Source of the DNA: Anaerolineales bacterium
Lineage (GTDB): Bacteria > Chloroflexota > Anaerolineae > Anaerolineales > Villigracilaceae
Reading direction: 5' to 3'
Length of the DNA stretch: 64,000 nt
Assembly (NCBI GenBank): GCA_030680795.1
Contig: JAUXUL010000028.1
Coordinates: forward strand, 1 to 64,000
Position numbers and translations under genes: made by a program. The notes under the pieces are model-generated. The model worked only from the letters and a program-made list of their open reading frames with translations. It made no database searches and had not been told where the DNA came from. Numbering within the stretch: position 1 is the first letter of the stretch; each line of letters starts with the position of its first letter. Of the stretch, positions 14,911-17,330 are shown one piece after another.

Positions 14911-16674
14911 TTACCGCGCTCCTTTTCTTCCAAATTGACGTTCAAGCAGATCCACTGAGAGATGGATCATCGTCGGTCTGCCATGCGGGCAGGTGCGCGG
15001 TGACTGGCAGGCTTCGAGATCGTTCAACAGACTGCGTTGTTCGTCGCTCGTCAGGGTTTGACCGCCTTTTACAGCCAGTCGTTTGCAGACCCGCGCCGCG
15101 AGTCTCGCCTCCACCTCAGCCTGCAGCGGCGTTTCATCCTCTTCAAAATCCTCGACCAGGGCCCGCAGCGCGGACGCAGAATCAGCGCCCGAAAACAGGA
15201 CAGGCATGGCGCGTACCTGGAACGTATTCGCGCCAAACTCTTCCACTTCAAAACCAAAATGATTCAGGAATGGCAATTGTTCGGTGAGCATCTTCGCAGA
15301 TTGCGGCGGCAGGGTGACAACTTCCGGGGAAAGCAAAGCCTGGGCGGGGATGTTCTTTATTGCCCGCTGCGCCATCAGTCTTTCAAACAAGACACGTTCA
15401 TGGGCGGCATGCTGATCTATCAAATACAGTCCATCAGGACCTTCAGCGACAAGATAGGTCGAGCCGATCTGACCGATGAGTCTCAACAAAGGCACACCCG
15501 TTGAAAACGACTTTTGACCTTCGACTTTTGACTCATCACTGGCAACTGGCAACTGATCACTGCCCACTGACGACTGCTCATCATGCGCAATAGACCAATC
15601 AATACCCACATGCCTGTCTGGGAGGTTACTCTGCGAACGGGTTCCCCACAACTGCGGCGAAACGGAGGGCACAGGTGTGTACGCCAGCAAGGCCTTGCGC
15701 ACGGAGCGCTGCACAAAACTGAAAACTTTATCCTGGCTTCTAAAGCGCACTTCCGCCTTGGTGGGATGCACATTCACATCCACATCTTCGGGCGCTATTT
15801 CCAAAAACAAGGCTGTCAGCGGATAACGTCCCACCATCAACAAGGTGTGATAGGCCTGCAACAAGGCCGAGGTTAAAGAGATTGACTGCACCCAGCGCCC
15901 GTTGACGAAGAAGGTAATTTCCTTGCGGTTTGAGCGAGTCAACGAGGTGGGGCTGATAAAGCCAGATAACGATAAGCCTTGTCCTGAGCCATCTTCCTGA
16001 GCCATCACTTCCAGCATTTGTTTCGCGACATCCACGCCATACAATGCGGCGAAAATGGCACGGCGATCACCATCGCCGGCAGTTTGCAAAGTGGACTGCC
16101 GGCCATCCGTTACTTTGAAACGCACATTTGGGTAAGCCAGCGCATAGCGTGTAATCATCGCATCAATGGCGCGCCTTTCAGTCACATCTGTTTTCAAAAA
16201 TTTCAAACGCGCAGGCACGTTGTAAAACAAATTTTCCACGCGCATTACCGTCCCCACGGGCACGCCTGCTTTTTCCACTTTGCCTGCAAGGCCGCCGTCC
16301 ACTTTTAGGCGCGCGCCTTCTTTTGCAGAGGCCACGCGCGAGATCATTGTAAAATGCGAAACGGAACCTATCGAAGCCAGCGCCTCGCCGCGGAAGCCCA
16401 AGGTGGAGATGTGGAACAAGTCCTCGGACTGAACCAGTTTCGAGGTCGCATGACGCGAGGCGGCTAAATCCAATTCAGCGGCGGGAATGCCATCTCCATC
16501 ATCCGCAACCTCGATCAGCGCGCGGCCTGCATCCGCAATTGAAATGGAAATATTTTTCGCGCCCGCATCCAATGAATTTTCAACCAGTTCTTTCACAACC
16601 GAAGCAGGGCGCTCCACCACCTCGCCCGCAGCAATTTGAGAAGACACTTCAGAAGAAAGCAATCGAATTGGCAT
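14911..16674 (-). CDS. mutL: DNA mismatch repair protein MutL (endonuclease type)
   Basis: 587 aa. GHKL ATPase motifs are complete: IAAGEVVERPASVVKELVENSLDA, DDGDGI, ATSKL, and GFRGEAL. The C-terminal domain carries the DQHAAHERVLFE metal-binding motif near residue 420 (DQHAx2Ex4E) and CPHGRP near 561, so it is a nicking MutL as in most bacteria lacking MutH. It acts with MutS in mismatch repair. The ATG at 16674 (MPIRLL) is preferred to the upstream one at 16695 because family proteins start here. The linker (residues about 365-383) is encoded by a heptamer array (15525-15580). Its start is 20 bp from the divergent HAD gene; both share one palindromic -10 element. Confidence 0.95.
   Translation of the reverse strand: MPIRLLSSEVSSQIAAGEVVERPASVVKELVENSLDAGAKNISISIADAGRALIEVADDGDGIPAAELDLAASRHATSKLVQSEDLFHISTLGFRGEALASIGSVSHFTMISRVASAKEGARLKVDGGLAGKVEKAGVPVGTVMRVENLFYNVPARLKFLKTDVTERRAIDAMITRYALAYPNVRFKVTDGRQSTLQTAGDGDRRAIFAALYGVDVAKQMLEVMAQEDGSGQGLSLSGFISPTSLTRSNRKEITFFVNGRWVQSISLTSALLQAYHTLLMVGRYPLTALFLEIAPEDVDVNVHPTKAEVRFRSQDKVFSFVQRSVRKALLAYTPVPSVSPQLWGTRSQSNLPDRHVGIDWSIAHDEQSSVGSDQLPVASDESKVEGQKSFSTGVPLLRLIGQIGSTYLVAEGPDGLYLIDQHAAHERVLFERLMAQRAIKNIPAQALLSPEVVTLPPQSAKMLTEQLPFLNHFGFEVEEFGANTFQVRAMPVLFSGADSASALRALVEDFEEDETPLQAEVEARLAARVCKRLAVKGGQTLTSDEQRSLLNDLEACQSPRTCPHGRPTMIHLSVDLLERQFGRKGAR
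15525..15580. repeat. Heptamer array inside mutL linker
   Basis: Tandem degenerate heptamers (GGCAACT, GGCAACT, GATCACT, GCCCACT) with flanking CTTTTGA-type units encode the unstructured linker between the ATPase and dimerisation domains, where extra residues are tolerated. Confidence 0.65.
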
Positions 16675-16694
16675 GACGCGATTATAATCGCCCA
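16675..16694. promoter_or_regulatory. Shared palindromic -10 element for divergent leaderless mutL and HAD genes
   Basis: The 20 bp between the two start codons read GACGCG, ATTATAAT, CGCCCA. ATTATAAT is its own reverse complement, so TATAAT occurs on both strands and ends exactly six bases before each ATG. With a transcription start at the usual distance, both mRNAs would begin at or next to the A of the start codon. No Shine-Dalgarno fits in the space. Confidence 0.7.
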
Positions 16695-17330
16695 ATGCGA
16701 TTCACAACCATTTTCTTCGACCTCGACGATACGCTTTATCCGCCCAGCACAAATTTATGGAAAGCCATCAAGAAACGCATGAACGATTACATGCGCGAGC
16801 ACATGGATATTCCCGAAAACGAAATTCCATCTTTACGCGAAAAATATTTTTTGGAATACGGCACGACCATGCGCGGCTTGCAGGCCAACCACAACATCAA
16901 TACGGATGATTTCCTGGCCTACGTGCATGACCTGCCCCTGAGGGATTACTTGACTCCCAACCCGACCCTGCACTCGATCATCGCTTCGCTCCCGACCCGC
17001 AACCTGGTCTTTACAAACGCAGACAGGGTCCACGCCCGCAGAGTGTTGACTGCCCTCGAACTCAATGACCTCTTTGATACCATCGTGGATGTAAACACGG
17101 TCGCCCCGTATTGCAAACCAATGCCCGAGTCATTTGAGATCGCCTTGCAGATCGCAGGCGAGACGGATCCCTCGAAATGCGTGATAATAGACGACATCCA
17201 TCGCACCACACGCGCCGCGCGCGAGGCAGGTTTATTCAGCATTTTATACAGGGACTCATGGACAATGGATGACGCCAACGCGCACTTCACAGATTGGAAT
17301 GAGTTGAAGAATATTTTGGAGAATCAGTAA
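16695..17330 (+). CDS. HAD-family hydrolase, pyrimidine 5'-nucleotidase type
   Basis: 211 aa. HAD motif I is FFDLDDTLYPP at the N-terminus, motif II is VFTNADR near residue 98, the lysine is in CKPMPESF near 140, and motif IV is CVIIDDIHRTTRAA near 160. The combination LDDTLYP plus VFTNAD is characteristic of the PpaX/SDT1-like pyrimidine 5'-nucleotidase subgroup, which dephosphorylates pyrimidine monophosphates or related small phosphates. It starts at ATG 16695 only six bases after TATAAT, so translation is probably leaderless. Substrate assignment is by family only. Confidence 0.85.
   Translation: MRFTTIFFDLDDTLYPPSTNLWKAIKKRMNDYMREHMDIPENEIPSLREKYFLEYGTTMRGLQANHNINTDDFLAYVHDLPLRDYLTPNPTLHSIIASLPTRNLVFTNADRVHARRVLTALELNDLFDTIVDVNTVAPYCKPMPESFEIALQIAGETDPSKCVIIDDIHRTTRAAREAGLFSILYRDSWTMDDANAHFTDWNELKNILENQ

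Follow-up and report, generated by a model that had tools for sequence, protein, structure and literature searches.

A 20-bp palindromic spacer between mutL and a nucleotidase gene as a putative shared promoter for two leaderless mRNAs in Anaerolineales

Within the window, the 64,000-nucleotide stretch of an Anaerolineales genome (family Villigracilaceae) that we analysed, mutL and a gene for a HAD-family pyrimidine 5′-nucleotidase (hereafter HAD) lie divergently, with start codons 20 bp apart. Read directly from the window, positions 16672-16697 are CAT GACGCG ATTATAAT CGCCCA ATG; the spacer has the form N6-ATTATAAT-N6, and each of its two TATAATs ends 6 bases ahead of its own ATG. An earlier note on this DNA had described the 20-bp length, the palindromic core and the 6-base distances, all of which are exact at these coordinates. 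The features of the locus are as follows.

14911..16674, minus strand: mutL, with its ATG at 16674-16672 (profile match, alignment of relatives)
16695..17330, plus strand: HAD-family pyrimidine 5′-nucleotidase gene (TIGR01993), with its ATG at 16695
16675..16694, no strand: whole spacer between both start codons, 20 bp (sequence, relatives)
16681..16688, no strand: palindromic core ATTATAAT, two overlapping putative -10 hexamers
16683..16688, plus strand: putative -10 element of HAD, TATAAT
16681..16686, minus strand (reads 16686-16681): putative -10 element of mutL, TATAAT
16675..16680, minus strand: six bases from -10 to ATG of mutL, G+C-rich among relatives
16689..16694, plus strand: six bases from -10 to ATG of HAD, G+C-rich among relatives
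16678..16691: perfect 14-bp palindrome GCGATTATAATCGC in the window species, its outer part not kept as a palindrome

Both gene assignments are well above their profile cut-offs: the minus-strand product matches MutL (TIGR00585) with 539.9 bits (cut-off 180), and the plus-strand product matches pyrimidine 5′-nucleotidase (TIGR01993) with 192.8 bits (cut-off 142.9). The nearest named loci, from metagenome assemblies, show 82% protein identity. Both start codons are supported by relatives, whose proteins align from residue 1 in 31 of 31 loci for HAD and in 30 of 31 for MutL. An open reading frame that extends mutL to an upstream TTG was rejected, as relatives align from the ATG at MPIRLL and the added stretch would be the spacer itself.

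The two TATAAT hexamers within ATTATAAT are both perfect consensus sequences, offset by 2 bp. Neither 6-base stretch of the window spacer contains a visible Shine-Dalgarno sequence, and a TATAAT about 12 bp ahead of a start codon that lacks a Shine-Dalgarno sequence is the sequence signature of a leaderless gene. The arrangement also has the geometry of a bidirectional promoter, in which -10 elements on opposite strands overlap; the implied starts are 21 bp apart, inside the range of 7-25 bp that is applied to such promoters. A consensus scan detected no sigma-70-type promoter with a -35 element near the site, including inside the opposite gene. The best matches to TTGACA averaged 2.4 of 6 for HAD and 3.2 of 6 for mutL in 35 short forms of the spacer (2.8 and 2.9 when shuffled), and 2.8 and 3.2 in 13 long forms (2.8 and 2.8 when shuffled). 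In E. coli, a promoter that lacks a -35 element is weak unless helped. A table of the first 18 codons, compared by eye, does not clearly set short forms apart from long ones.

The six-base stretches from -10 element to ATG have a G+C fraction of 0.84 for mutL and 0.75 for HAD (35 short forms), compared with 0.49 at 60 other leaderless-type sites of the window's own genome. G+C-rich discriminators have been linked to stringent control elsewhere. Across 28 distinct 20-bp spacers, which were selected for this form, the core ATTATAAT is invariant, and complementarity of the flanks exceeds expectation at none of six position pairs. The 14-bp palindrome of the window species is thus not a conserved operator. 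The description of the locus as fully symmetric holds for the 8-bp core and both distances and goes too far beyond them.

The mutL/HAD spacer pattern is not a product of chance. Of 57 genomes of the genus, 46 contain the pattern CAT-N6-ATTATAAT-N6-ATG (6/6), at 57 places in all, and a reversed control has no match. With one more base on one side (6/7) there are 26 places in 19 genus genomes (control, 1), whereas two more bases on both sides (8/8) give one place, as does the control; the 10-bp palindrome ATTATATAAT, which is perfect in both directions, is found nowhere in the genus genomes. Enrichment of the 6/6 and 6/7 patterns without that of 8/8 or ATTATATAAT indicates that the distance to the ATG matters. 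Allowing one mismatch, the 6/6 pattern has one match in the window, with 0.02 expected from shuffles, and it occurs once in the window's own genome. One-sided TATAAT-N6-ATG sites number 62 in that genome, compared with 11 for the reversed control.

The layout is concentrated in one family. In a class-wide sample of 298 genomes, matches were found in 9 of 14 genomes of the same family (6 of 6 in the genus, 3 of 8 in other genera) and in 1 of 284 others, where the site lies between an ABC transporter gene and a gene with a methylguanine methyltransferase DNA-binding domain. In a sample of genome G026, TATAAT-like hexamers before in-frame ATGs peak at distances of 6 bp (10 cases) and 7 bp (8 cases); a further 8 at 12 bp count against the leaderless reading. 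In 464 kb of the window's genome a crude gene caller listed 55 divergent adjacent pairs, of which mutL/HAD alone has this spacer; none of the 43 pairs that it listed in 360 kb of G026 has it.

The most informative evidence comes from the same locus in relatives. From 57 genus genomes, 54 readable loci were obtained; G069 was dropped because no HAD match was found at E 1e-30, and G063 and G071 are outside the 54 because no mutL was found beside HAD. The earlier note had proposed conservation of the spacer as a check and would have taken a lack of it as refuting its reading; the check came out in favour of that reading, core and length being kept in 36 of the 54 (35 spacers of 20 bp, one of 21). 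The spacer is long (58 bp or more) in 16 genomes and intermediate in two (39 and 40 bp), and in these forms each gene has a separate TATAAT. HAD has its TATAAT at N6 in 53 of 54 genomes, the exception being G026 with N8. For mutL, a script placed it at N6 in 52 of 54; G014 has N7, and in G017 the script misplaced the mutL start and the distance is N6 by eye. No observation speaks more strongly for use of both directions, and for leaderless mRNAs on both sides, than this splitting of one palindrome into two TATAATs with the distance to each start codon kept.

Outside the genus the picture is more varied. Among eight genomes from other genera of the family, four have the 20-bp spacer, one of them with a HAD gene that starts with GTG, and four have 55-154 bp. 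The other families of the order are mixed: L040 and L048 carry separate TATAATs near both starts, and at others HAD lacks a neighbouring mutL or no signal of this kind is present. At L164, L165, L166 and L171, named loci of greater distance, there are 27-bp mutL/HAD spacers in which two hexamers are neighbours without overlap (ATTCTA CCG TATAAT), a second ultra-compact solution. More than 1 kb separates mutL from HAD at L030 (G027), where it includes coding-like sequence, and at L162; HAD still has a TATAAT next to its start codon at both.

The same layout recurs between other genes. All 22 of the 6/6 places away from mutL were fetched, and 19 of them are flanked in both directions by an open frame of 91 aa or longer; two have such a frame on one side only and one on neither. 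Fourteen of the 22 lie between a gene with an aminoacyl-tRNA editing domain, which we take to be YbaK-like, and a methyltransferase gene. A gene whose product begins MLKPTD (no Pfam match) is paired twice with a DUF6962 gene and once with a GH18 gene, and single places were found for PAPS reductase/methyltransferase and for cobalamin adenosyltransferase/VWA7_N-domain gene pairs. Of 26 places with the 6/7 pattern, 14 were fetched; eight are flanked on each side by a frame of at least 140 aa (four YbaK/methyltransferase, two MLKPTD/GH18, one PriA pair and one alanine racemase pair), and the other six are not two-sided. That other gene pairs share it argues for a general layout with no particular tie to mutL. 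The two-sided form, which the earlier note had called unusual, is recurrent and not unique within the window's family.

A second site of this kind in the window's own genome is of the 6/7 type and lies between YbaK-like and methyltransferase genes (L122, G000:C11:16090-16116). At L077, L079, L081, L123 and L127, the MLKPTD gene shares a 20- or 21-bp palindromic promoter-like spacer with a partner that varies by species, being either the DUF6962 or the GH18 gene.

A 70-bp query taken from a long-spacer inverted repeat led to an element of about 77 bp with dispersed copies. Most of those matches listed for the query that lie near E = 1 are probably fortuitous. The element reads TATATAATACCC(T)CGGTCACAAATTGCG, a loop of about 20 bp, then CGCAATTTGTGACCGTGATGGGTATAATC, with outward-facing TATAAT ends. 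Twenty element places in 12 genus genomes were picked from the query's match list, some with the right half only. Copies lie at non-orthologous places, as is characteristic of mobile elements, and two were found in 360 kb of G026. Of 25 element ends away from mutL that a script recognised, 13 have a frame-opening ATG 6-8 bp past the TATAAT; in eight of the remaining 12 a start lies 11-31 bp past it, and in four there is none within 45 bp. The dispersed inverted repeat may be a mobile leaderless promoter. Outward-facing TATAAT ends are seen at the element places L211-L230, L097 and L107. At L227 (G019), the element's GGGTATTATATAAT end precedes the YbaK-like gene in place of the palindromic form, and the methyltransferase gene is absent from the 1-kb stretch examined.

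A profile built from 14 non-mutL element sequences matches all 15 long mutL/HAD spacers scanned (G027 left out), with scores of 5.8-30.7 compared with at most 4.4 in 300 shuffles; among short and intermediate spacers it listed none. Judged by this profile, the long spacers are degenerate copies of the dispersed inverted repeat with outward putative -10 elements. In the window's genome the mutL/HAD spacer is of the short form, and no clear copy of the element was found in the 464 kb examined, where the only two hits (E 0.7) were taken as chance. A simple pattern for the mutL hairpin is not high-copy, with 0-7 places per genome in five genomes.

Short and long forms have replaced each other repeatedly. 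On a MutL+HAD tree of 53 rows, built from two linked genes without G027 and with weak branches, the short/not-short label requires at least 11 changes, and a quick tree with outgroups gave 12 changes for three states. The fully supported sisters G008 (short) and G074 (long) are 93% identical in DNA over 3 kb, and the same pair of forms is seen in the named records L157 and L156, which are 92.5% identical over 5.6 kb. Short forms mostly read GAT-TATA-ATC and long forms mostly GAT-TATA-[...]-TATA-ATC, so that either a deletion between TATA repeats around the hairpin or an insertion that duplicates TATA could account for the change. Parsimony from a chosen root does not separate the two, with 10 changes as gains only (root short), 17 as losses only (root long), or one gain plus 15 losses. 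The best profile hits in all 15 long spacers scanned have one orientation, a pattern that favours losses or an orientation-biased gain. In another lineage, L161 carries the element in the opposite orientation. Four ortholog comparisons were made in a look-up of empty sites: L218/L105 showed ATTATAAT without the element, L217/L107 the element in both, L225/L096 a TATAAT only and L222/L099 no promoter-like site.

A tentative account, which we consider possible though doubtful, is that an inverted-repeat element with leaderless -10 ends enters and leaves the TATA centre of palindromic -10 elements and so converts a shared promoter into two separate ones and back, with the ATG distances nearly always kept. 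Such an element would offer a natural way to toggle a gene pair between coupled and uncoupled expression, and it would spread through genomes as a ready-made leaderless promoter.

A shared -10 element with leaderless starts on both sides, as the earlier note had proposed, appears to be the best fit to these comparative data, and we put the probability that the 20-bp spacer is one bidirectional promoter yielding two leaderless mRNAs at about 0.75. A housekeeping-type RNA polymerase holoenzyme would bind the palindrome ATTATAAT facing either way, though never both ways at once, and would use a perfect TATAAT each way without a recognisable -35 element. RNA would begin at the A of each ATG, and the resulting leaderless mRNAs would presumably be translated by ribosomes that accept a 5′-terminal AUG. 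From the sequence we infer transcription both ways, an RNA start at the AUG, exclusive binding and coupled expression of the two genes. Counted against this reading are the missing -35 element on either side and the implied start distance of 21 bp, which lies within 7-25 bp but differs from the commonest E. coli values of 18, 10 and 23.

It is rather improbable, though the strongest of the competing explanations, that the element serves one direction only, the other gene being transcribed from a promoter within the adjoining gene, and that the palindrome is a coincidence. Single TATAAT-N6-ATG sites are indeed frequent on their own in the window's genome, as one-sided use would have it, but both genes retain a TATAAT close to the start codon in long spacers, and such use leaves unexplained both the exact 6 bp on the second side at 57 places and the recurrence at other divergent pairs. 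That the palindrome serves a dimeric regulator as its operator, with promoter function secondary, strikes us as very unlikely: the perfect 14-bp palindrome of the window species would suit an operator, and operators over shared -10 elements exist, CsoR being an example (PMC5057107), yet flank complementarity in the 28 spacers is not above chance, and the long forms split or lose the palindromic core while a TATAAT stays before each ATG. We give equally little credence to the view that the 20-bp form is a scar left by the inverted-repeat element, or its empty site, without any special role as a shared promoter. Such a history fits the TATA layout of most short and long forms and the match of every long spacer scanned to the element profile above the best of 300 shuffles; it explains interconversion but not why both distances were kept through at least 11 changes, nor the gene pairs for which no long form was seen. 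A scar origin and a shared promoter are compatible with each other.

Bidirectional promoters and leaderless genes are themselves known; what is new is the two-sided, conserved and recurrent form. Among the papers listed in keyword searches of an open-licence library, none was seen on a shared -10 element with leaderless starts on both sides. Shared--10 bidirectional promoters are described as common in E. coli, with starts mostly 18 and also 10 or 23 bp apart (PMC12825309). The promoters of Warman, Grainger and co-workers, as these reports present them (PMC12825309, PMC10268837), resemble the mutL/HAD proposal in a near-symmetric -10 element read both ways, in mutual exclusion and in commonly poor -35 elements. 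They differ in that the mutL/HAD hexamers are perfect, are offset by 2 bp and imply a start distance of 21 bp, and in that this site serves two protein genes whose mRNAs would both be leaderless. Among Chloroflexi, 4 of 12 genomes were inferred to contain leaderless genes, on average 4.7% of all genes (PMC3160421); these likewise have a TATAAT about 12 bp before the start codon and lack a Shine-Dalgarno sequence, but the account concerns single genes, and the word 'divergent' occurs nowhere in its available text.

According to its published description, the csoR-cueA divergon of Bradyrhizobium liaoningense (PMC5057107) also has overlapping -10 elements of divergent genes, and its csoR mRNA was mapped to the A of its ATG; unlike the present site, its other side has a 42-nt leader, and it has -35 elements and the CsoR operator TATACCC-N5-GGGTATA. 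That operator is absent from the window spacer, and in the long forms its halves lie tens of bases apart; the published CsoR box (PMC5057107) resembles the ends of the ~77-bp element. Mycobacterium tuberculosis lysG-lysE, as reported in PMC5648196, shares overlapping divergent promoters and has a second lysE promoter that gives a leaderless transcript, but it has a 108-bp intergenic region and a LysR-type regulator, and its leaderless promoter is not the shared one. With MITEs, REPINs and mobile promoters, as generally described, the ~77-bp element shares the form of a dispersed short inverted repeat with promoter-like parts; it differs from them in that its ends resemble -10 elements, about half of those examined being at leaderless distance.

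Pyrimidine nucleotidases of this kind could clear abnormal pyrimidine nucleotides, and a link between mismatch repair and the nucleotidase could be attractive, if hypothetical. If transcription follows the sequence, a divergent promoter serving two protein genes could hardly be smaller than the mutL/HAD spacer: all bases between the start codons would be core promoter, and the ratio of the two mRNAs would depend solely on which way the polymerase faces. Species as close as G008 and G074, with shared or separate promoters, would then offer natural alleles for testing how polymerases compete at bidirectional promoters and how this competition affects coupling and noise.
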